This document shows, piece by piece, positions 40,917 through 60,950 of a stretch of DNA of 62,248 bases (the stretch's first letter is position 1; the number at the start of each line of letters is the position of its first letter). The position numbers were made by a program, and so were the translations under genes. The notes under the pieces were generated by a model. That model had not been told where the DNA came from and searched no databases. It was given only the letters and a program-made list of their open reading frames with translations. The DNA is from Bacteroidota bacterium (GTDB lineage: Bacteria > Bacteroidota > Bacteroidia > B-17B0 > Aurantibacillaceae), in the NCBI GenBank assembly GCA_013816615.1, contig JACDED010000009.1, positions 1 to 62,248 on the forward strand. Reading direction: 5' to 3'.

Positions 40917-43900
40917 TTAATATTGTATCACTATAAATCCGTTTGTTGTTTTTATATCACCACCTTTAAATTCGAGGATGTAATAATAAGTTCCAGGAGG
41001 TAATTTATCTGTACCTAATGTGCCATTTACATTCGGCATTCCATTCCATGTATTATCGTAATTATCTTTCGCGTAAACTTTATTTCCCCAACGGTTGTAA
41101 ACTGTAAAAACATTATCTACACCAACCGGCAATCCTTTTATAATGAACAGATCATTTTTGCCATCACCATTTGGCGAGAAGCCATCAGGAATAAAAAAAT
41201 CTGTATTAGGAATAATAAGAACAGTTGGTACATTATCCGCCGGTTCATTCCAAACACCATTGTCATTTGAATCAGGATCATTACCAGTATTTGAAGTATC
41301 AGAAACCGTAATGCTTGTACTACTTAATGCATTACCATATGCACTGTTTTTAAAGATAGTTACTGTGTCCGGATTTACATTAATGGTAAAGATGATCGTA
41401 TTCACATTTCCGGGCGCCATAACATTTAAACCGGATAATAAATTAATATCGCTGTTACCATTGTATAAACTGTTGGCAGTTAAATTTCCACTTACTGTAG
41501 GACCAGATTTCATTGTATAAGTAGCAGGATACTTAATTGTATTATTAAACAAGCTGTCTTTTGCGGTTATGTTTTTCAGCGTATCGTTCCCTAAATTGTG
41601 AATGGTGATCGTATAGGTAATATCGTAGGTTTTATCAGCCATTTTTGTACTAACGGTTCCTGCCTTGGTTATACCAAAGAATATATTTGGTGTGAACTGA
41701 ATTGGAGTAGGAATATTATTATTAGTAGGATCAATATCTGTATCCGGATCCGGATCTGATCCAACTTGCGAGGAATCGCTTACGTAAACACTTGGGCTTG
41801 GACTTGCTAAACCTATTACAGAATTATTGAACGGACCAAAGAAGCCATTAGTGAAGATCTTTACACCAAATACAATAGTATCACTTTGCCCGATATTTAA
41901 TGTACTTGTTGATCCTGTAGTTAATGATGTTTGTAAATTTCCATCAAATGCAGGATCTATTGTTAAGCTACTTCCTGTTGAAGTTATCACCGGCGTAGAT
42001 GTCAACGTAAATGTGGATGGTAAAGGGAAGGTGCTATTCAGGTTCTCGGTTAAAGTAACATCTGTTAAAGGTAACAAGCCGTAATTTTTAACTACCACTT
42101 TATACGTGATATCATAACTGCCATCTAAATTTAAAGTAGGAGTACTAACTGATTTTGCAATTCCTAATGAATTTACTGATAAACAATTTATAGGAATTAA
42201 AATTAAAGTAGTGTCTTTTATACAACCATTCGCATCAAATATTCTTACTGTATAGGCAACAGTTCCGCTTGGATTCGCTAATGTATTTGTAACAATACCC
42301 GTTGTTGGAATATTTGTTGCAGTTAAATAAGTTGCTGTTCCTGTATATGTACTTCCCGAAACATAATCGTATTTATCTGTTCCTGTAAAATTGAATAAAG
42401 TAATTGTTCCATCGTTATTAGAAACACTACCGGTGCAAGTTGCCGGAGTAATAGATGCCGTTACAGCAATATTTGTTTGAATGGCCACAGAAGCAATTGC
42501 TGTGGTTGAACAAGAACTGTTAAGGTCTGTTACAGTTACCGTATAAGTGCCCGATTGTGATGATGTAAATGTTTGCGCACTGCTTGTAAAACTACCCGGC
42601 CCGTTCCAGGCATAAGAAACATTTGTTGATGTTGAACTTGCGTTTATTGTAACACTTGTGTTTGAGCAGGTAATGCTTCCGCTTACTGCAGTTGTTACAG
42701 ATGGAATAGTTGAGTCGGTTGGTACAGTTAAAGTAACGGAAGCGCTGCAACCTGTGCTGTTATCTATTACATTAAAGGTATAGGTTCCTTGTACGCTCAC
42801 TGTTGGATTTTGAACAGTAGAAGTATAAGAGCCAGGACCATTCCATAAATAACTTACGTTAGTTGAAGTTGAACTTCCGGTTAGAGTAACAGTTTGTGCT
42901 GAACATGTAATAGAGCCACTTGTTGTTGCGGTTAAATTTGCAGGTAAAGGTGTTATAAATACAGCAACAGTAAACGAAGAAGAACACACGCCGTTTGCCC
43001 CTGTTACAGTATATGTTGTGTTTATAGTTGGCGTTTCAACAGTTGTTGAAGTTGTATTCCCGCTTGGTAACCAGGTGTAGTTCGTTGCACCCATAGCGGT
43101 AAGCGTGGTTGAATAGCCACTACAAACTGTTGAGTTTAATGGAGAAATTGTTAAAGCCGGAACAGAATTTACAACAACCGTAACGGTTGAAGTTCCTGTA
43201 CAGCCAAACGCATTACTGCTTGAAACTGTATAAGTTGTTGTAATAGTTGGTGTATCTGTAATTGTTGCTGTAGTTAAACCTGTAGGGTTCCATGTGTAAC
43301 TGCCCGAACCGTTAGCTGTTAGTGTAACCGTTGAACCAACACAAATAGAAGTTGCGGATGCTGTAGCTGTTAATGTTGGTATTGGCGACACATTCACGTT
43401 AACAGTGCCTTGTCCTGAACAACCATTAAAATCTGTACCCGTAACTGTATAGGTAGCGTTTGTTGTTGGTGATACAACAACTGAAGTGCCTGTTGCCGTT
43501 GTGCTCCATGAATAAGTTGTAGCACCCGAAGCGGTTAAAGTAGCACTATTGCCCATACAAATTGTAGTTGGCGAAGCAGTAGCAGTTACTGTTGGATTTG
43601 GACTCGGAACCAAACCAACAGTTTGTGTTGACTGGCATAAACCATTTGAACCTATTAATGTAAATATTGTAGTAGCGGTTAAAGGAGTGATCAATACCGT
43701 TGCAGTAGATCCACCCGGCAACCAGGTATAATTGGCTGCTCCTATTGCAGTTAAAGTGGCGTTATTGCCAACACAGATAGGCACTAATGGGATAGCAATT
43801 ATTAAGGTCGGATTTGGAGTAACTACTAAGTTAACTGTATTATTTGCGGTACATCCAAAACCGTTAGTGCCTGTAACCGTATAAAGTGTAGTGGCGGTTG

Positions 43901-46900
43901 GCGTAACTGTTATTGTGCCTCCCGGTAATGAGATCGGGTTCCAGGTATATGAAGTAGCGCCACTTGATGTTAAAGTAGCAGAGTTTCCGGCACAAATATT
44001 TGTAGGCGAAGCTGTTGCCGTAAGTGTTGGATTTGGATTTACAGTAATGGTTAATGTTTTATTATTTGTACATAAACCATTTGCGCCTGTAACAGTATAA
44101 ATAGTAGTAACAGATGGAGTAACGGTTACAATACCTCCTGGTAAAGCACCCGGATTCCAGGTGTAAGATGATGCGCCTGTAGCTGTTAAAGTAACTGAAG
44201 CTCCTGCACAAATAGCTGAACTGCTTGCAGAAGCAATGACTGTAGGTGTTGTTGTAACGTTAACGTTTATGGTTGCAGTATTCGAACATAAGAAACTGTT
44301 AACGACACTCCATGTGTAAACTGTATTTACCGTTGGAGAAACAACGGCAGTTGCACCGGCAACAGCACCCGGGTTCCAAATAGAAACAAACGGCCCGCCA
44401 TTTGCAGCAGTGCCTGTTAATGTGGTTGAGTTTCCACTACAAATAGCAGTAGGTGAAGCAACAACCGTTAAAGAAGGAATAGGGTTAACAATTAAAGTAA
44501 TGGTTTTAGTACTTGTACATCCTAGTGCGCCTGTACCAATAATTGTGTGTGTTGTTGTAACAGTTGGGTTCACTACAACAGCCGATCCGCTTAATGCGCC
44601 CGGTAACCAGTTATAAGTGTTAGCGCCAGTAGCTGTTAAAGTAGAAGAGGCTCCATTACAAATAACAGTAGGTGAAGCAACAACATTTATTGTTGGTGAT
44701 GGATTAACGTTTACAGTAATGGTTTCGCTATCAACACAATTCCCATTCGCACCCGTAAGTGTATAGGTAGTGGTGATGGTTGGAGATGTTACAATGGTAG
44801 TTCCGCTTAAACTTCCCGGCATCCATGAATAACTTAAAGCTCCACTCGCTGTTAATGTAGTTGAATTTCCTGCGCAAATTGTTGTTGGTGAAGCCAATGC
44901 GTTCACAGTTGGATTTGGAGTAACCACTAAGTTAACTGTATTGCTTGCGGTACATCCAAAGCCGTTAGTGCCTGTAACCGTATAAAGTGTAGTGGCGGTT
45001 GGCGTAACTGTTATTGTGCCTCCCGGTAATGAGATCGGGTTCCAGGTATATGAAGTAGCGCCACTTGATATTAGAGTAGCAGAGCTTCCAGCACAAATAT
45101 TTGTAGGCGAGGCTGCTGCTGTAAGTGTTGGATTAGAGTTTACAGTAATGGTAATTGTTTTAGTATTTGTGCACGAACCATTGGCACCTGTAACAGAATA
45201 AGTAGTTGTTACCGTTGGCGTAACAGTAACGGTGCCGCCTGGTAAAGCCCCGGGGTTCCACGTATACGATGTTGCACCGGTTGCTGTTAATGTAATTGAA
45301 GCCCCCGCACAAATAGTTGAACTACTTGCAGAAACAATAACTGTAGGTGTTGTTGTAACGTTAACGTTTATTGTTGCAGTATTTGAACAGCTAAAACTAT
45401 TTGTTACACTCCATGTGTAAACTGTATTTACCATTGGAGAAACAACAGCCGTTGCAGCGGCAACAGCGCCAGGATTCCAAACAGAAACAAACGGTCCGCC
45501 ATTTGCCGCACTGCCGGTTAATGTTGTTGAGTTTCCACTACAAATAGCAGTAGGAGAAGCAACAACAGTTAAAGAAGGAATAGGGTTAACAATTAAAGTG
45601 ATTGTTATAGAATTTGAACAACCCGCAGTGGTTGTACCAATAACAGTATACGTTGTTGTAATAGTTGGATTCACCGCAACGGCCGAGCCGCTTAACGCGC
45701 CTGGCAACCAGTTATAAGCATTAGCGCCTGAAGCAGTTAAAGTAGAAAAAGCGCCACTGCAAATAACAGTAGGTGAAGCAACAACTGTTAAAGAAGGGAT
45801 AGGATTAACAACAACTGTTATTGTTTTAGTGTTTGAACAGGTTCCGTTAGAACAAATAACCGTATAAGTAGTTGTAATTAACGGAGAAACAACCACGTTG
45901 CTTCCTGTTAAAGCTCCGGGACTCCAGGTATAATTTGTTGCTCCATTCGCAATTAAACTCGTTGAACCTCCCGCGCAAATAGCGGTTGGTGAAGCAATAG
46001 TATTTATAGTTGGAACAGGCGTAACAATTAAATTAACGGTGTTAGTTGCGGTACATCCAAAACCGTTAGCACCTGTAACAGTATAAAGTGTAGTAGAAAC
46101 CGGGGTAACACTAACTGTACCTCCGGGTAAGGCACCCGGGTTCCAAGTATATGAAGTGGCACCCGAAGATGATAAAGTTGCAGAGCTTCCTGCGCAAATA
46201 TTTGTTGGCGAAGCAGAAGCCGTAACTGTAGGATTTGGATTTACGGTAATTAAAATTGTTGCAGTACTAGTACAAGCACCATTAGATCCAGTAACAGTAT
46301 ATGTAGTATTGGACGCAGGTGATACCACTACGTTGCTTCCGGTTAACGCACCTGGATTCCATGTGTAGTTTGTTGCACCGGTTGCAGTTAATGTGCTGGA
46401 TTTTGTTACACAAATTGTAGCAGGAGATGCCGCCGGACTAATTGTGGGAATAGGCGTAACACTTAAATTAACTGTATTGGTTGTGGTACAGCCAAAACCG
46501 TTAACTCCTGTAACTGTATATAATGTTGTAGTAGGAGGTGTAACTGTTACAGTTCCTCCAGGCAATGCGCCCGGATTCCAGGTGTAACTGGTGGCCCCCG
46601 ATGAACTTAACGTTGCCGAACTTCCAACGCAAATATTGGTTGGAGACACGATTGCAGTAATAGTTGGGTTCGGGTTCACAATTAAATTAACTGTTTTTGT
46701 TGAAGTACAACTTCCATTACTTCCTGTAACGGTATACAAAGTAGTTGCTGTTGGAGTTATGGTTACGGGGTTGCCGTTTATGTTACCGGGGTTCCAGGTG
46801 TACGTTAATGCGCCTGATGCGGTTAATGTTGCAGATCCGCCGCTACAAATTACAGTTGGCGACGCTGTTGCATTCACTGTAGGAATTGGATTTACCAATA

Positions 46901-49259
46901 ATGAAATAGTTTTTGTATCACTACAATTTGCTGTTATACCCGTAACATTGTAAACCGTTGTTGAAGCTGGATTTACAGTAACTGTACCTCCTGATAAAGT
47001 TCCCGGATTCCACGTGTAGCTTGCAGCGCCACTTGTTGCTAAAGTCGCACTTCCACCAATACAAATAGATGTTGGGCTTGAAACCGGATTAAGCGTTGGT
47101 GTGATATTTACAGAAACCTGGCTAGTGGTTGAATTTGTACAACCTGCAGCATTTGACCCCGTTAAAGTATAAACTGTTGTAGAGCCCGGTGTAACTGTTA
47201 CTGTTCCACCTGGTAAAGCTCCCGGATTCCATATATAACTTAATGCGCCGCTGGCTGTTAAAGTACTCGAGCTTCCACTACAGATCACTGTTGGTGATGA
47301 ATTTGCGCTAACTGTGGGGTTTGCATTTACAACCAACGCAATTGTTTTTGAACTTGTACAGCTTCCATTAGCACCAATAACTGTATATGTTGTAGTTATT
47401 GCAGGTGTAACTATAATGGTACCTCCAGGCAAAGCACCCGGATTCCATGTATAACTTGCAGCGCCTGTTGCACTTAGTGTTGCAGAACTTCCGGCACACA
47501 CTGCAGTTGACGAAGAAGTTGTATTTAATGTCGGCGTTGGCGTTACAGAATAAGAAATCGTATTTGTTGAAACACAACCTATCGCATTTGCACCTGTTAC
47601 AAAATAATTTGTTGTTACAGTTGGTGTAATAACAAGTGATGAAGAAATTACGGCTCCCGGATTCCAGGTATAACTTACAGCGCCGCTGGCGGTTAATGTT
47701 GCAGAGCCACCACTTGCACTACAAATAGTTGTAGGTGAACTTACAACGGTCATAGTTGGACCGTTACTTACAGTTACCTGTAAAGTTTCGGTATCGGTAC
47801 ATGAAAGTAAAGATCCTGTTACGGTATAAACTGTAGTAGCCGCAGGTGATACGCTAACAAAAGATCCAATTAAATTTCCGGGCTGCCATGTATATGTTAG
47901 CGCGCCTCCGGCAAAAAGATTTACAGAGCTTCCCGCACAAATCGTATTGGTGCTGCTAAATGCAGTAACCGTTGGTGAGCCTATTACACTTATGCTTATT
48001 GTATTTGATCCTGTACAACTTCCACTACCACCAACAACAGTATACGTTGTTGTAATTGTTGGATTAACGACAGTAACCGAACCGTTAGCTCCTGTGCTCC
48101 AGGTATAATTGGTCGCACCTGTGGCTGTAAGTGTTGCCGGAAAGCCTGCACAAACAACATTGGTACTTGAGCTTACCGTAATAACCGGTGCCGTAGTGAC
48201 CGTGACCTGCACTGTTTTTGAAGAGATGCAATTTATAGAGCTGGTAGAAGTGACCGTATAAATTTGCGTTGCTCCGGGGGAGACAGTAACCGTACCACCC
48301 GGCAGTGAGCCGGGCATCCACGTGTATGTGACGCCGCCTGTTGCTGTTAATGTTGAGCTTGTAGTAGGGCAAATAGTTGCAGGTGTTGCTGCTACGATTA
48401 TATTGGGCGCTGAAATAAATATAGTCGTCATTTGTGGCCAACCCCCACCGGGGAAGCCGCAAGAGCTCTTTGGAGGACAAACGCCGTTACCGCCACATGA
48501 ATCTATCCTGAAAACAGAATAAGTTGTTGTAGCAGTTACACTTGGTAAAGCAAGTGTTGGTGAAATTGTAATTCCCTGTAAAGCACCTGTGTTATCATAA
48601 TATTTATAATACACAGTGGAGGTAACACAGCTCGGCGCTAAGGCAGGGCTGGCACAGGGTAAAGGACAGTTCGGATTTAAAATAGTTAACGTTTTTGCAC
48701 CGGGGCAGGTTGGTGAAAGCGTTGTGGTAAAAGGTGAATGTGTTAAAGATGCAGAGCATACTACTGGTGGCACACCTGGGACGACAAAGGAATTTACAGC
48801 TGTCCAGGGTCCGGTACTGGTTGTTCCGTAAACAGCCTCCCTGGCCCGAAAATACATGGTGGTTCCGGGGCAAAAATAGGAGTAGGGAATGAGAATATTA
48901 TTATAAGGTTCCTGAACACATTGATCGTTCCAGCCGCTTGCGGCATTATAACCAGGGATATTTAATAAAGAGTTGAAAAATGGATAACTAACATAAGTCA
49001 CACCGGGGCCGGTCCAGTTACTTAAAGCATTTATCAAACAAGTAGGCTGTACGCCACCAAAGCCGGTAGGCGAACACGCAACTTCTATCTGCATCCAGTA
49101 TGGGCCACCACCGCATGTAGCTCCGTTTGACTCACCGCTAACAGTAATACCGGTAGGACCAGTGGTAAAATTATAGTTAACCAAAGGAAATGCGTGAGTG
49201 GCAAAAGTGGTTTTGCAAAATAAAGCTAAAACAAAAATAAGGGCGTAATGAAGCCGCAT
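40917..49259 (-). CDS. Giant 2780-aa repeat adhesin with T9SS type B sorting domain
   Basis: Residues 1-20 are a signal peptide. Residues 21-163 are a cysteine-rich domain homologous to that of the 992-aa protein (GPYWMQIEVAC; NDQCVQEPY; GPWTAVNSFVVPG). From about residue 283 to 2106 there are 25 tandem units of ~73 residues, each with a C(A/S)GxS cysteine near position 10, YTWNPG near 25, YTVTG near 50 and a second cysteine near 57, probably one disulfide per unit. Two Ig-like units with WNGPGS follow, then two DUF11-like domains (DITYKVVVKNYG; DITYTITIHNLG). The C-terminal FIPDGFSPNGDGKNDLF domain is type B. It should span a long distance from the surface as a filamentous adhesin or motility protein and heads the operon with PorP/SprF. 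Confidence 0.93.
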   Translation of the reverse strand: MRLHYALIFVLALFCKTTFATHAFPLVNYNFTTGPTGITVSGESNGATCGGGPYWMQIEVACSPTGFGGVQPTCLINALSNWTGPGVTYVSYPFFNSLLNIPGYNAASGWNDQCVQEPYNNILIPYSYFCPGTTMYFRAREAVYGTTSTGPWTAVNSFVVPGVPPVVCSASLTHSPFTTTLSPTCPGAKTLTILNPNCPLPCASPALAPSCVTSTVYYKYYDNTGALQGITISPTLALPSVTATTTYSVFRIDSCGGNGVCPPKSSCGFPGGGWPQMTTIFISAPNIIVAATPATICPTTSSTLTATGGVTYTWMPGSLPGGTVTVSPGATQIYTVTSTSSINCISSKTVQVTVTTAPVITVSSSTNVVCAGFPATLTATGATNYTWSTGANGSVTVVNPTITTTYTVVGGSGSCTGSNTISISVIGSPTVTAFSSTNTICAGSSVNLFAGGALTYTWQPGNLIGSFVSVSPAATTVYTVTGSLLSCTDTETLQVTVSNGPTMTVVSSPTTICSASGGSATLTASGAVSYTWNPGAVISSSLVITPTVTTNYFVTGANAIGCVSTNTISYSVTPTPTLNTTSSSTAVCAGSSATLSATGAASYTWNPGALPGGTIIVTPAITTTYTVIGANGSCTSSKTIALVVNANPTVSANSSPTVICSGSSSTLTASGALSYIWNPGALPGGTVTVTPGSTTVYTLTGSNAAGCTNSTTSQVSVNITPTLNPVSSPTSICIGGSATLATSGAASYTWNPGTLSGGTVTVNPASTTVYNVTGITANCSDTKTISLLVNPIPTVNATASPTVICSGGSATLTASGALTYTWNPGNINGNPVTITPTATTLYTVTGSNGSCTSTKTVNLIVNPNPTITAIVSPTNICVGSSATLSSSGATSYTWNPGALPGGTVTVTPPTTTLYTVTGVNGFGCTTTNTVNLSVTPIPTISPAASPATICVTKSSTLTATGATNYTWNPGALTGSNVVVSPASNTTYTVTGSNGACTSTATILITVNPNPTVTASASPTNICAGSSATLSSSGATSYTWNPGALPGGTVSVTPVSTTLYTVTGANGFGCTATNTVNLIVTPVPTINTIASPTAICAGGSTSLIANGATNYTWSPGALTGSNVVVSPLITTTYTVICSNGTCSNTKTITVVVNPIPSLTVVASPTVICSGAFSTLTASGANAYNWLPGALSGSAVAVNPTITTTYTVIGTTTAGCSNSITITLIVNPIPSLTVVASPTAICSGNSTTLTGSAANGGPFVSVWNPGAVAAATAVVSPMVNTVYTWSVTNSFSCSNTATINVNVTTTPTVIVSASSSTICAGASITLTATGATSYTWNPGALPGGTVTVTPTVTTTYSVTGANGSCTNTKTITITVNSNPTLTAAASPTNICAGSSATLISSGATSYTWNPISLPGGTITVTPTATTLYTVTGTNGFGCTASNTVNLVVTPNPTVNALASPTTICAGNSTTLTASGALSYSWMPGSLSGTTIVTSPTITTTYTLTGANGNCVDSETITVNVNPSPTINVVASPTVICNGASSTLTATGANTYNWLPGALSGSAVVVNPTVTTTHTIIGTGALGCTSTKTITLIVNPIPSLTVVASPTAICSGNSTTLTGTAANGGPFVSIWNPGAVAGATAVVSPTVNTVYTWSVVNSFLCSNTATINVNVTTTPTVIASASSSAICAGASVTLTATGASSYTWNPGALPGGIVTVTPSVTTIYTVTGANGLCTNNKTLTITVNPNPTLTATASPTNICAGNSATLTSSGATSYTWNPISLPGGTITVTPTATTLYTVTGTNGFGCTANNTVNLVVTPNPTLIIAIPLVPICVGNNATLTAIGAANYTWLPGGSTATVLITPLTATTIFTLIGSNGLCQSTQTVGLVPSPNPTVTATASPTTICMGNSATLTASGATTYSWSTTATGTSVVVSPTTNATYTVTGTDFNGCSGQGTVNVNVSPIPTLTATASATSICVGSTVTLTANGSGSYTWNPTGLTTATITDTPTITTTYTVSSSNAFGCTGTSTVTVVVNSVPALTISPLNSTVCSGYSTTLTAMGATNYTWLPSGNTTSTTVETPTINTTYTVTGANGVCSSSFTVAVFITPLPANLTATTSGSITCSAQTVTLTGSSTSTNVSYLWNGPGSYTSTVQNPTVSVQGTYTFNVIDNSTGCSASVTLTVPTDSTIPSVTTAVSGSITCSNTSVTINASSTSTNVSYAWNGPGSFTSSAQTFTSSQSGTYTVTVTDLNSSCSTTAIASVAIQTNIAVTASITPATCTGSVSNNDGTITLFNFTGTDKYDYVSGSTYTGTATYLTATNIPTTGIVTNTLANPSGTVAYTVRIFDANGCIKDTTLILIPINCLSVNSLGIAKSVSTPTLNLDGSYDITYKVVVKNYGLLPLTDVTLTENLNSTFPLPSTFTLTSTPVITSTGSSLTIDPAFDGNLQTSLTTGSTSTLNIGQSDTIVFGVKIFTNGFFGPFNNSVIGLASPSPSVYVSDSSQVGSDPDPDTDIDPTNNNIPTPIQFTPNIFFGITKAGTVSTKMADKTYDITYTITIHNLGNDTLKNITAKDSLFNNTIKYPATYTMKSGPTVSGNLTANSLYNGNSDINLLSGLNVMAPGNVNTIIFTINVNPDTVTIFKNSAYGNALSSTSITVSDTSNTGNDPDSNDNGVWNEPADNVPTVLIIPNTDFFIPDGFSPNGDGKNDLFIIKGLPVGVDNVFTVYNRWGNKVYAKDNYDNTWNGMPNVNGTLGTDKLPPGTYYYILEFKGGDIKTTNGFIVIQY
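42942..48411. repeat. 25 tandem ~219-bp coding repeats with an internal segmental duplication
   Basis: The repeats encode the 73-residue units of the 2780-aa adhesin. At DNA level, blocks ~43812-44695 and ~44912-45795 are near copies with a 1101-bp offset (five units), sharing long runs such as the bases around 43900 and 45000. These blocks hold units 18-21 and 13-16; unit 17 separates them. The copying looks recent compared with the rest of the array. Confidence 0.85.
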
Positions 49260-54740: not shown

Positions 54741-55904
54741 TTAAAACGCCTGTAAAATATCGTTTAAGATATCTTCTTTGTTCTCAAGACCAATAGAAAT
54801 GCGAATTAACCCGGGTGTAATTCCAACAGTTAACCTTTCCTGCTCTGATAATTTACAATGTGTTGATGAGGCCGGATGCGTAGCAATTGTTCTGGCGTCG
54901 CCCAAATTTGGCGAGATCTTTATCATTTGCAATTTATCTAAAAATTGTTTTGCAGCATCATAACCACCTTTTATCGTAAGAGTAATAATACCGCCACCAG
55001 CTTTCATTTGTTTTTTTGCTATGTTGTAATTTGGATGAGATTGTAAAAATGGATAAGAGATATTTTCCAGTTTTGTATTTCCTTCCAAAGCTTGTGCAAT
55101 GTATAAAGCATTTTCGCAATGCCTGTCCATTCTTAATGCTAAAGTTTCTAAGCTCTTGCTTAATACCCACGCGTTAAACGGACTTAAAGACGGGCCGGTT
55201 AATCTGCCAAATAAATAAATATCATTTATAAGTTCTTTTTTACCAACAGTAATTCCTCCCAATACACGGCCTTGTCCATCCATGTATTTAGTGGCAGAGT
55301 GAATCACCAGATCGGCACCAAACTTAATGGGTTGTTGTAAATAAGGCGTTGCAAAACAATTATCTACGATAAAAAGTAAATTATGTTTTTTTGCGATTTT
55401 ATTTACTACTTCAAGATCAATTAATTCTATTGCAGGATTGGTAGGTGTTTCTAAATAAATAAAACGTGTTTCAGGTTTAATCAGTTTTTCTATTTCGGTA
55501 ACGTTATTAGTATTGAAATAAGAATGTGTAATATTTAATTTAGGAAAATATTTTGTAAAGATGGCATGTGTGGCACCAAAAACAGAAGAGCAGGAAACAA
55601 TGTGATCGCCCGATTTTAATAGAGCCATAAAGGTGGTATAGATCGCCGCCATACCAGATCCAAAGGCAACACCTGCCTGAGCACTCTCAAGCAGGCAAAC
55701 TTTATTTACAAACTCATTTACGTTTGGATTGGTATAGCGCGAATATATAAACTCATCTGATTCATCATTAAAAGCAGCACGCATTTCTTCTGCAGTATCA
55801 AAAATAAAACTCGACGTTAAATAGAGTGGGGCAGAATGTTCGTTATTCTGACTGCGCTCCGTTTGCGCCCGTATTGCCTGTGTTTCAAAATGTTTATCTT
55901 CCAT
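54741..55904 (-). CDS. metZ: Trans-sulfuration PLP enzyme, probably O-acyl-homoserine sulfhydrylase
   Basis: This 387-aa Cys/Met-metabolism enzyme has the PLP-lysine motif HSATKYMDGQGRVLGG typical of MetZ-type sulfhydrylases, with FGSGMAAIYTTFMALLKSGD and FIYLETPTNPAIELIDL upstream. It would combine acyl-homoserine with sulfide to form homocysteine. Presence of metX on the same strand suggests O-acetylhomoserine as substrate. Cystathionine gamma-synthase activity cannot be excluded from sequence. It is the last gene of the SAM-riboswitch strand, 75 bp after osmC with a dispersed repeat in between, so it may have partly independent expression. Confidence 0.88.
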   Translation of the reverse strand: MEDKHFETQAIRAQTERSQNNEHSAPLYLTSSFIFDTAEEMRAAFNDESDEFIYSRYTNPNVNEFVNKVCLLESAQAGVAFGSGMAAIYTTFMALLKSGDHIVSCSSVFGATHAIFTKYFPKLNITHSYFNTNNVTEIEKLIKPETRFIYLETPTNPAIELIDLEVVNKIAKKHNLLFIVDNCFATPYLQQPIKFGADLVIHSATKYMDGQGRVLGGITVGKKELINDIYLFGRLTGPSLSPFNAWVLSKSLETLALRMDRHCENALYIAQALEGNTKLENISYPFLQSHPNYNIAKKQMKAGGGIITLTIKGGYDAAKQFLDKLQMIKISPNLGDARTIATHPASSTHCKLSEQERLTVGITPGLIRISIGLENKEDILNDILQAF

Positions 55905-57977: not shown

Positions 57978-59225
57978 TTAATTATTAATTAATTGTTTTT
58001 CTTTAATTGAAATTTTAGTTTTTGTATTTAATTCTATTTTGTCATTTACCAACGAGATAAATAAATTATTTTTTAAAATATAATCGCGGTTAGTTATAAG
58101 TGTTTGCAGGTTTACTTTTCCCACAATGTAATTGTAATCAGTACCAGTGTATTTTTCAGTGATCTCATCAAATTCGATCTTATCAAGATCGATGATAGAA
58201 TTATAGCGGAAATATACATTTATGAATACATCGTTTGTAAAATCAGAAGCATGCTTTTGAACATGTTTTTTATATTCGTATTTGTAGCCATGCGAAAGCG
58301 CCGAAATATCAGATAATACAGCCGCACCTGTTGGATAGCTTCCGGCACCTTTACCCTGTAAGAATTGCTCGCCCGAAAATTTACCTTCAACAATTACACC
58401 GTTAAATTCATTATCAACATTAAATAATTGATCAGTTTCTTTTACAAAACGTGGCGCAACTAAAATACCCACTTTGTCATTTTCTAGTCGTTGAATAACC
58501 GGTGTCAGTTTTATTTTATAACCCTTTTCAGATGCGTATTTAATATCGTTATCATGTAATGTAGTAATACCAAGATTTAAAATTTGTTCCGGTTTAATGA
58601 TCAGTCCAAAAGCATGTAATGCAATGATCACGGCTTTGTATTTTGGATCAAAACCTTCTACATCGCTTGTTGGATCGGTTTCTGCAAAACCTTTTTCCTG
58701 CGCTTGTTTTAAGGCTGTTGCGTAAGATAATTTTTCGTTAATGGTTTTTGTAAGAATGTAATTCGTTGTTCCGTTAAAGATGCCCGATACTTTTTCCAGT
58801 TCTTCATTATCAAAATATTCTTCTAAAGTTCTAATGATAGGAATGCTTCCACCAGCTGATGCTTCATACAATAAAGAAACATTGTTTTCCTGCTGTAGTT
58901 TATATAATTCTTCCAAATGATTAGCCAATAACTTTTTATTAGCTGTTACCACATGCTTACCTCTTTTTAATGCTTCGCTTACAATATTAAATGCTTCTTC
59001 TGCATCGTCTATCAATTCAACAATTACATCAATTTCGGGATTGTTTAATATTTCCCATTTATCAAAGGTGATTAGCTCTTTTGATACGCTGCGTTCTTTG
59101 GTTTTATCTTTCACTGCAATTTTTACGATGTCGGCTTTAAAGCCGGTGCTATTATTCAACACATAATATAAGCCCTGGCCAACACAGCCAAATCCGAATA
59201 ATCCTATTTTTAATTTCTTTGCCAT
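57978..59225 (-). CDS. hom: Homoserine dehydrogenase
   Basis: The 415-aa enzyme reduces aspartate semialdehyde to homoserine. The N-terminal nucleotide-binding motif is GLFGFGCVGQGLYYVL. TANKKLLANH and YEASAGGSIPIIRTL with VSGIFNGTTNYILTK are the catalytic-domain signatures, and FAETDPTSDVEGFDPKYKAVI follows. The C-terminal ~90 residues do not look like a clear ACT domain, so allosteric threonine inhibition may be absent. It is 14 bp downstream of metX, supplying its substrate. Confidence 0.94.
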   Translation of the reverse strand: MAKKLKIGLFGFGCVGQGLYYVLNNSTGFKADIVKIAVKDKTKERSVSKELITFDKWEILNNPEIDVIVELIDDAEEAFNIVSEALKRGKHVVTANKKLLANHLEELYKLQQENNVSLLYEASAGGSIPIIRTLEEYFDNEELEKVSGIFNGTTNYILTKTINEKLSYATALKQAQEKGFAETDPTSDVEGFDPKYKAVIIALHAFGLIIKPEQILNLGITTLHDNDIKYASEKGYKIKLTPVIQRLENDKVGILVAPRFVKETDQLFNVDNEFNGVIVEGKFSGEQFLQGKGAGSYPTGAAVLSDISALSHGYKYEYKKHVQKHASDFTNDVFINVYFRYNSIIDLDKIEFDEITEKYTGTDYNYIVGKVNLQTLITNRDYILKNNLFISLVNDKIELNTKTKISIKEKQLINN

Positions 59226-59239
59226 TTTTTCTAATATTT

Positions 59240-60304
59240 TTAATTGTTCGTTTTTTGTAAATTCAATTTGTCTTTTTTTATTTTTTCCTCCGCGTAATAC
59301 ACTGAAATGATCTTTGTTAGTTTTTCTGTTTCAATTAAAAACCCATCATGGCCAAAAGCTGAATCTATTTCTGCATAATTTGCACCGTTAATATTCTTTG
59401 CTAAGAATTTTTGTTCTGCCAAAGGAAAAAGTATATCCGTTGTTAAGCCTATTACCAAAGTGCTAGCTTTAATTTGTTTCAATGCCAGCTCTTTTGTTTC
59501 ACTTCTGTTTCTTGCAACGTTGTGACTATCCATGGCATCTAATAATCTTACATAAGAGTAGGCGTTAAAACGATTCGCTAATTTTTCTCCCTGGTAGCGT
59601 TGGTAAGAAGCCGACGCATAATTATTAGTTTTATTATAATTCTCATCTTTTTGTGTTGCATCATACGTGTTATAGCCTCTATAGCTTAATAAGGCAATAC
59701 TTCTTGCAGCAGATAAACCCTTTTTCGCAGCGTCCACTGTATTTGAATAATATGTTCTATCCGCTTTTATCGCTAAACGTTGCGATTCATTAAAAGCAAT
59801 TCCCCATGGCGAGTGTTGCGCATTAGTAGCGATCAAAATTAAATTTTCTGCCAGGTCTTTATTTTGTAATGCCCATTCTTGTGCAATTTGCCCGCCTTGC
59901 GAACCACCAATCAATGTGTGAATTTTATCTATTCGCAAATGCTCTTTTAATAATTCTAAGGATGCAGCAATATCTTTAATAGTTATTTGAGGAAAGTAAT
60001 TGAACCATGCTTCTTTTGTTTCCTGGTTAATACTTAGCGGACCTGTTGTGCCATAGCAAGAACCAATATTGTTTGCGCAAACAATAAAATGATCTTTTGG
60101 ATTGTAAAGACTATTGTCGCCAAACAAACCATTCCACCAGTCGAACACATTGCTGTTTGCGGTTAGTGCGTGGCACACCCAAATAACATTGTTACGCTCT
60201 TTGTTAAGCGTGCCAAAAGTATGGTATGCAATTTCAAGCGAAGGAAGTGATTGACCACTCTCTAATTGAAATCTTTTTTGATATGTAAATTTTGATAAGC
60301 TCAC
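59240..60304 (-). CDS. metX: Homoserine O-acetyltransferase
   Basis: This 354-aa alpha/beta-hydrolase-fold enzyme acetylates homoserine. The nucleophile S135 lies in GGSQGG, a Gln variant of the usual GGSMGG elbow. CHALTANSNV and GSCYGTTGPLSINQ are family marks. The acid is in TDILFPLAEQ and the histidine in FGHDGFLIE. Whether acetyl-CoA or succinyl-CoA is used cannot be fixed from these motifs alone. It is the first enzyme gene after the SAM-I riboswitch leader and the small 80-aa gene. Confidence 0.94.
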   Translation of the reverse strand: MSLSKFTYQKRFQLESGQSLPSLEIAYHTFGTLNKERNNVIWVCHALTANSNVFDWWNGLFGDNSLYNPKDHFIVCANNIGSCYGTTGPLSINQETKEAWFNYFPQITIKDIAASLELLKEHLRIDKIHTLIGGSQGGQIAQEWALQNKDLAENLILIATNAQHSPWGIAFNESQRLAIKADRTYYSNTVDAAKKGLSAARSIALLSYRGYNTYDATQKDENYNKTNNYASASYQRYQGEKLANRFNAYSYVRLLDAMDSHNVARNRSETKELALKQIKASTLVIGLTTDILFPLAEQKFLAKNINGANYAEIDSAFGHDGFLIETEKLTKIISVYYAEEKIKKDKLNLQKTNN

Positions 60305-60610: not shown

Positions 60611-60657
60611 AAAAATCCGGGTAACAGAATGCATCAATTTTGCCCCGGTTGCCAGGG
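60611..60657 (-). promoter_or_regulatory. Two mutually exclusive hairpins (candidate attenuator)
   Basis: On the minus strand CCCUGG-CAA-CCGGGG (60657 to 60643) can form an upstream hairpin with one G-U pair. Its right half, CCGGG, can instead pair with CCCGG at 60621-60617, which is followed by AUUUUU, giving a terminator with a ~22-nt loop. The Cys codons of the leader peptide contain GUUGC, able to pair with GCAAC of the first hairpin. The stems are short (5-6 bp), so this is a structural hypothesis. Confidence 0.45.
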
Positions 60658-60692
60658 TTAAATTTTCCAATAAAATTTTGAGAAAATTTAGC

Positions 60693-60812
60693 TTAGCACA
60701 TGTAGCAGCAGCAACACATACAACAAGCCATCATTAAAAATGAAGAAATGCGGTTAGAATTAAATCCTTTTGACTGAATGTCGTTTTGTTTTTTTGAGTT
60801 TGTGTGTTTCAT
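60693..60812 (-). CDS. 39-aa Met/Cys-rich leader peptide of the sulfur operon
   Basis: A small ORF begins with ATG at 60812, 8 bp after the 3' strand of the riboswitch P1 helix, and ends with TAA at 60693. It encodes an N-terminal polar part (MKHTNSKKQNDIQSK...) and a tail MMACCMCCCCYMC. Eleven of the last 13 residues are Met (4) or Cys (7). Such runs in front of sulfur amino-acid genes are the hallmark of leader peptides that sense charged tRNA. Two alternative hairpins follow the stop codon. A metal-binding peptide is the main alternative reading. Confidence 0.72.
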   Translation of the reverse strand: MKHTNSKKQNDIQSKGFNSNRISSFLMMACCMCCCCYMC

Positions 60813-60820
60813 TTTTCTTT

Positions 60821-60950
60821 TTTTAATTTATTTCTCTCCGTTTTTCATCGGAGTAGGAGTTGGCACCTGTTTTCCAATCCGTAAGGACTTTTAGTTGGTT
60901 GCCAGTGGGTCAGTGAGCCTATTCTCTCGCCACTTCTTAATAAATTAAAA
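60821..60950 (-). promoter_or_regulatory. SAM-I (S-box) riboswitch
   Basis: On the minus strand the conserved core is present: GTGGCGAGAGAATAGGCTCA, then CACTGGCAACC (60907-60897) and GGTGCCAACTCC (60867-60856). The P1 helix is a perfect 12-bp pairing of 60939-60950 with 60821-60832. A small CTCCG/CGGAG hairpin (60854-60837) lies before the 3' strand of P1. SAM binding would stabilise P1 and trap the A-rich start region of the leader peptide. It controls the metX-hom-prx-akr-osmC(-metZ) string. Confidence 0.9.

Follow-up and report, generated by a model that had tools for sequence, protein, structure and literature searches.

A cysteine- and methionine-rich leader ORF directly behind SAM-I riboswitches in Bacteroidota: a candidate two-input control of sulphur assimilation

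What does a SAM-I riboswitch act on when a short open reading frame (ORF) ending in a run of Cys and Met codons begins only a few nucleotides behind it? The question is raised by a locus on the minus strand of a 62,248-nucleotide stretch of DNA from a Bacteroidota bacterium (the whole of this stretch is called the window here). The order is a predicted member of the SAM-I aptamer family, scoring above the RF00162 gathering threshold, then 12 nt, an ORF of 39 codons (MKHTNSKKQNDIQSKGFNSNRISSFLMMACCMCCCCYMC), a spacer of 128 nt, a second small ORF (ORF2), metX and hom (Table 1). After hom, on the same strand, come genes for a peroxiredoxin, an aldo-keto-reductase-like protein, an OsmC-like protein and a homoserine-sulfhydrylase-like PLP enzyme, the last of which possibly belongs to the same operon as metX. 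The tail of the leader ORF is MMACCMCCCCYMC, and its last 13 residues are four Met, seven Cys, one Ala and one Tyr. In being a short ORF that precedes the operon and is rich in codons for a product of the pathway, it has one of the defining features of a ribosome-mediated attenuator.

Such an attenuator had been proposed in an earlier reading of the letters alone (the sequence-only reading). Its ORF, tail composition and upstream SAM-I element are where it placed them, as are the motifs from which it built two alternative hairpins: CCCUGG (60657-60652), CCGGGG (60648-60643), CCCGG (60621-60617) and AUUUUU (60616-60611). It also set the ORF between the riboswitch and metX, which is correct as a position, but metX is not the next ORF: ORF2, which that reading omitted, intervenes. 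No Cys-specific T-box was matched by Rfam at gathering in the window, where only RF00162 and Flavo-1 reach that threshold. The Flavo-1 RNA (RF01705, 69.3 bits) lies at 2466-2550 on the plus strand, and a very long ORF of 2780 aa occupies 40917-49259 on the minus strand.

Table 1. Features of the metX locus in the window.
Feature	Position	Strand	Remarks
SAM-I riboswitch aptamer (RF00162)	60825..60946	-	70.3 bits; gathering 44.4
Cys/Met leader ORF, 39 aa	60693..60812	-	Cys-rich tail at stop; ATG 12 nt 3' of aptamer
Predicted hairpin 1:2	60691..60728	-	Cys codons and stop codon; MFE and RNAalifold, 9 close loci
Possible alternative pairing 2:3	60650..60698	-	UGCUAAG (60698-60692) with CCUGGCA (60656-60650)
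Predicted hairpin 3:4, CCCUGG-CAA-CCGGGG	60643..60657	-	no U tract; kept in close loci
Terminator-like hairpin, CCGGGG with CCCGG-AUUUUU	60611..60648	-	in window; not accepted as a conserved part
ORF2, 80 aa	60322..60564	-	conserved; encoded between leader ORF and metX
metX, homoserine O-acetyltransferase	59240..60304	-	TIGR01392 331.6 bits (curated cut-off 500), PRK00175 314.3 (cut-off 331); both below cut-off
hom, homoserine dehydrogenase	57978..59225	-	NF004976 344.6 bits (cut-off 205); PF00742
O-succinyl/acetylhomoserine-sulfhydrylase-like PLP enzyme	54741..55904	-	best NCBIfam NF006003, 499.6 bits (cut-off 522)

RF00162 was searched in the genome of the window and 59 relatives and was found at 82 places, of which the window's genus accounts for 61. 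A leader was scored where a short ORF with at least three Cys in its last 12 residues started within 90 nt of the aptamer. In the genus, a Cys-tailed leader was present at all 16 places before metX and all 4 before metY (20/20) and absent before metH (0/30), CGS/CGL genes (0/2), methyltransferase genes (0/5) and others (0/4). An even sample of the class comprised 99 genomes, three of them from the window's own genus, with 95 SAM-I places in 72 genomes, two below the family cut-off. Here the leader was found before metY in 7 of 11 cases and before metX in 1 of 3 (together 8/14), before 2 of 8 other genes, and never before metH (0/61), CGS/CGL (0/8) or methyltransferase genes (0/4); one of the two 'other' matches, L279, is doubtful (an ORF of 15 residues starting 69 nt away). 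Six of the 14 metX/metY sites in the class sample were without a leader by the criterion used. Among its four metY misses, the ORF of L249 ends in CC and that of L243 has CC near its end, and no such ORF was present at L256 and L291. Comparison of metX/metY with metH places gave Fisher p-values of 1.8 × 10−7 (class) and 2.1 × 10−14 (genus), values that overstate the difference because related places were treated as independent. Fifteen genomes contain both a leaderless metH SAM-I element and another element with a leader. SAM-I elements without a Cys leader also precede methyltransferase-like genes at L031, L246, L288, L298 and five genus loci.

To follow the arrangement through named genomes, we used a pattern that combined the SAM-I core with an ATG and three Cys codons and that returned at least 117 stretches; at least 80 loci were examined. 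Among the matches listed, 74 of 80 loci carried a Cys-tailed ORF, and four of these (L102, L124, L134 and L147) were dropped as they had no RF00162 match. The 70 listed loci that remained comprise 69 with RF00162 above gathering and one, L114, that begins inside the aptamer; by title, 69 of these 70 are from Bacteroidota, L114 being titled only 'bacterium'. Locus L105 (Anaerolineae) has SAM-I and no Cys-tailed ORF. Named genomes accordingly hold at least 69 SAM-I-confirmed Cys-leader loci, in Pontibacter, Rufibacter, Sabulibacter, Marivirga, Nafulsella, Cesiribacter, Saprospiraceae, Lewinella, Cyclobacteriaceae, Mucilaginibacter and others, all of which we take to belong to the phylum Bacteroidota. 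Because the pattern demanded three Cys codons, this set shows the spread of the element, not its frequency. For the statistics below, 61 and 22 loci were combined into 83, after exclusion of nine loci that repeat genus loci; some of the 83 are still near-identical.

Leader copies away from SAM-I were sought in 41 genomes with a profile hidden Markov model (HMM) built from 11 leader peptides. None appeared among the ten matches with E < 1e-3, all of which were SAM-I-linked, and among 12 weaker matches that of G008 was SAM-I-linked too; the sensitivity of the model is limited, since it missed the known leader of G022. A search of a plasmid collection gave no match.

Cysteine is confined to the end of the leader. 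It makes up 510 of the 1,162 last-14 residues in the 83 loci, and 8 of 1,869 residues upstream; the final residue is Cys in 63 of the 83. A Cys-rich tail was the entry condition, so the informative part is the absence of Cys upstream. Met, which was not selected for, is enriched in the tail independently of the search pattern (47/826 versus 13/1,223 upstream; counted, among the matches listed, over the 59 pattern-found loci that do not belong to the window's clade). In seven close loci, differences at codon positions 1, 2 and 3 numbered 12, 12 and 47 in the tail and 131, 96 and 128 in the body, and pairwise codon differences were 18 synonymous to 40 nonsynonymous in the tail and 35 to 185 in the body. 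The body has thus diverged more freely, and the tail is the better conserved part, although its changes are not strictly synonymous. As judged from these comparisons, the ORF and its Cys tail are confirmed to be real, conserved and beyond chance. The sequence-only reading had tied its proposal to finding Cys/Met-tailed small ORFs behind other SAM-I riboswitches and to the conservation of ORF and tail in relatives, and both were observed; the association of a Cys/Met leader peptide with a sulphur operon proved widespread in Bacteroidota.

The high Cys content and conserved tail would also suit a functional micropeptide, for example a metal-binding one, acting without any stalling of ribosomes. 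We regard this as very improbable: the N-terminal body is unconserved between families, Cys occurs only next to the stop codon, and the leader is tied to SAM-I elements before sulphur genes.

The spacing between aptamer and leader is short and falls in a narrow range. The first ATG lies 2–15 nt 3' of the aptamer in 27/27 leader loci found with RF00162, and 2–18 nt in 66 of the 69 pattern-found loci among the matches listed; in the other three the ATG called lies within the aptamer, by 16 nt, and a further ATG in the same frame falls in the 2–18 range. The P1 helix of the aptamer falls within the expected footprint of a ribosome on the leader ATG, and it is weaker in leader loci than in other SAM-I elements (−2.7 versus −4.8 kcal/mol; 27 and 123 loci). 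Since only 12 nt separate the aptamer from the leader ORF, the leader is the probable target of the riboswitch, a connection that the sequence-only reading missed. The arrangement does not resemble a SAM-I element with a terminator as its expression platform, given the 2–18 nt between aptamer and ATG and the few U-tract hairpins after the leader. If the aptamer is co-transcribed, the ORF would not be leaderless, its ATG following a 122-nt aptamer; this would set it apart from the polycysteine ORFs of mycobacteria, which are reportedly leaderless, going by the title of an experimental paper.

One could also read the two elements as serial controls, in which the leader senses Cys and the aptamer acts elsewhere than at the leader start, or has little effect. 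In favour of this, no alternative partner for P1 was identified and P1 is weak in leader loci; yet 2–18 nt leaves no space for a terminator belonging to the aptamer itself, and the close spacing is preserved across many families. Serial controls of this kind seem unlikely to us.

An intrinsic terminator after the leader was the other main element of the original proposal, according to which stalling would form an antiterminator and ribosome release would let a U-tract hairpin terminate. The window does have the hairpin (−9.5 kcal/mol), and similar ones occur at some Cys-leader loci, for example L056 and L082. However, its CCCGG-AUUUUU 3' arm is missing from the other eight close loci. Hairpin 3:4 is kept in the close loci, where one of its pairs is doubly changed. 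We scored U-tract hairpins of −8 kcal/mol or better identically at all classes of site. They were found at 63/84 SAM-I/metH places, 10/10 SAM-I/CGS-CGL places and only 16/83 Cys-leader loci. The median score was −15.0 for metH (shuffles, mean −1.9) and −2.1 for Cys-leader loci (mean −4.2; shuffles, mean −2.7). All ten shuffles were beaten at 61/84 metH places versus 21/83 Cys-leader loci, so that a minority of the latter may terminate intrinsically. With a looser score the values were −6.5 versus −4.1. A conserved intrinsic terminator after the leader was accordingly rejected, and we think classic attenuation of this type improbable.

The spacer is nonetheless structured beyond shuffles (mean z −1.53, with 50 of 83 loci below −1), and its length is steady (median 125 nt, quartiles 110.5 and 132, in the 66 loci with the next start assigned). 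In the window's clade, RNAalifold predicted one hairpin in which the Cys codons and the stop take part, another of A-U pairs and a third, CCUUGG..CCAAGG, with double changes in 4 of 35 pairs. The 2:3 helix has 85.7% of cells paired in nine loci, without covariation, one of its sides being coding. With a ribosome set at either of the first two Cys codons, seven of the nine close loci were predicted to pair UGCUAAG at the stop with CUUGGCA in place of the CCUUGG hairpin, which returned when the ribosome was moved to the stop. In L025 the CCUUGG hairpin was weaker with the ribosome at the stop, and the 2:3 fold was kept without a ribosome. The window and L045 retained their hairpins in both ribosome states.

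Over the 83 loci, a ribosome-position switch gave no signal, if anything below shuffles (mean z −0.23, s.e. 0.11), and pairing between the Cys codons and an anti-Cys element farther downstream was weak (mean z −0.37; 10/83 at p ≤ 0.05). Neither was retained as a general mechanism. The alternative pairing that had been proposed is thus partly supported, by the predicted folds of most close loci, but neither by that of the window itself nor across the wider set.

Under translational attenuation, codons immediately ahead of the Cys run would instead base-pair with the beginning of the next ORF, which a stalled ribosome would free. Pairing with the ORF2 start is better than in shuffles at nine of nine closely related loci of the window's clade (z −0.97 to −3.61). 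It is not general (mean z −0.19, s.e. 0.17, 66 loci), and more of the start region is unpaired than of the spacer (0.58 versus 0.45). Sequestration of the next start, seen only in this clade, was rejected as a general mechanism, and we consider translational attenuation quite unlikely.

ORF2 itself represents a family of 72–80-aa proteins whose genes separate the leader from metX or metY; GG, R, N and E residues and the last residue, N, are invariant. Of the 20 genus loci carrying the leader, 19 have a homologue, and others were found at L098, L099, L115, L116, L119, L121, L125, L132, L146, L153 and L158. It has no Pfam or NCBIfam match, and its AlphaFold model is poor (mean pLDDT 59.7).

The metabolism encoded in the window's genome bears on why a methionine operon might respond to cysteine. 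The genome (assembly 97% complete) encodes a PLP enzyme closest to cystathionine beta-synthase (CBS; TIGR01137 493.9 bits, cut-off 510.25), two strong Cys/Met PLP enzymes and two PAPS-reductase-family proteins. No CysK scored above cut-off in this assembly, the single match being the CBS-like frame, and no CysE match exceeded 32 bits; given the completeness of 97%, either may have been missed. With a CBS-like enzyme and neither CysE nor CysK above cut-off, cysteine is probably made from homocysteine, and metX, on this gene content, probably feeds both amino acids. Across 15 hand-picked genomes with SAM-I before metX or metY, CysK was above cut-off in 2 of 10 with the leader versus 3 of 5 without it (p = 0.25, no significant link).

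The first downstream gene was assigned by blastx against references chosen from the same loci, and families by Pfam. In the at least 69 named loci it was metY in 35, metX in 11, sulphite reductase in 6 and PAPS reductase in 1; other genes were ATP-grasp (4), TonB receptor (3), ferredoxin-like (2), M14 peptidase (2), PhyH (2) and NhaC-like (2), with none in 1. The leader thus accompanies genes whose products form or fix sulphide (metX, metY, sulphite reductase, PAPS reductase), whereas interconverting genes (metH, CGS/CGL) have SAM-I without the leader, mostly with a terminator.

Several genes of unclear role also lie behind SAM-I and a Cys leader: ATP-grasp (L138, L165, L166, L169), PhyH (L111, L163), TonB receptor (L092, L136, L148) and NhaC-like (L139, L151). 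From this position, they may take part in the synthesis of thiols or the uptake of sulphur. Single genomes can carry two such elements before different genes (L109 and L169 in Nafulsella, L120 and L165 in Sabulibacter, L138 and L166 in Pontibacter aydingkolensis), which may therefore form a regulon. In Pontibacter, pairs of divergent SAM-I aptamers on opposite strands were seen at L136 (3405-3508/3797-3897) and L148 (5540-5645/5914-6012).

We judge it moderately probable that the SAM-I aptamer is wired to the short Cys/Met leader ORF, not to a terminator, and that the two together form a two-input control of sulphur assimilation. A low level of charged tRNA-Cys (or tRNA-Met) would stall ribosomes on the tail and raise expression of the operon. 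The SAM-bound aptamer, to go by the geometry of P1 and the ATG, would block translation of the leader and keep the operon off. The output would in most cases not depend on a canonical intrinsic terminator; it would run through the structured spacer (about 125 nt), either by termination of the Rho type or by a switch between the 2:3 pairing and the 3:4 hairpin, the latter in the window's clade. If the aptamer blocks the leader start and an untranslated leader leaves the operon off, we infer an AND gate, with full expression expected only when SAM and the charging of Cys (or Met) tRNA are both low. More tentatively, and as a possibility that we would not yet call probable, there may be a Bacteroidota-wide class in which the expression platform of SAM-I is the leader start, serving as an AND gate for de novo sulphide assimilation whose output would not need an intrinsic terminator.

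Parts of this arrangement have precedents. Cys-run leaders near the stop were described in Actinobacteria before the cys operon (Mycobacterium, Propionibacterium) and cbs (Bifidobacterium); they share with ours the short ORF, the Cys run near the stop, the sulphur genes and the lack of a conserved terminator, Rho having been suggested by the authors of that study, and differ in phylum, in genes and in that no SAM riboswitch is reported there (PMC1262725). The uORFC-8-2 motif before cysS in Rhodobacterales likewise has conserved uORF Cys codons in a hairpin and a proposed ribosome-mediated attenuation, but it has two Cys codons, a U-run terminator, cysS as its gene and no riboswitch (PMC8632094). 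In the Xanthomonas met SAM-I element, tRNA charging (uncharged initiator tRNA) is also a second signal in methionine synthesis; it is described as acting by direct tRNA binding with sequestration of the SD sequence, and no leader peptide is reported (PMC7270179). The ubiG-mccB-mccA operon of Clostridium acetobutylicum (S-box, T-box, antisense RNA) similarly joins SAM to a second RNA-based signal in one sulphur operon, but with the SAM element antisense, a T-box in place of a leader peptide and the methionine-to-cysteine direction (PMC9943018). Canonical SAM-I elements before metH and CGS/CGL in the same taxa, often in the same genome, share the aptamer family and differ in being followed by a U-tract hairpin and having no Cys leader. 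No Cys leader behind a SAM riboswitch was found described in the literature searched (open-licence papers).

Leader-peptide control is suspected in Bacteroidota but hardly described there: leader-peptide attenuation in general was suspected in Flavobacterium (PMC9723704) and Bacteroides (PMC7366714). The element occurs in isolates with names, among them members of Pontibacter, Rufibacter and Marivirga, which makes direct testing possible. If our reading is true, the element would be a natural two-input RNA device combining a metabolite riboswitch with ribosome-based sensing of tRNA. It would predict sulphur-related roles for the ATP-grasp, PhyH, TonB receptor and NhaC-like transporter genes, and it would explain how metX is set by both of its end products in an organism in which cysteine is apparently made from homocysteine.
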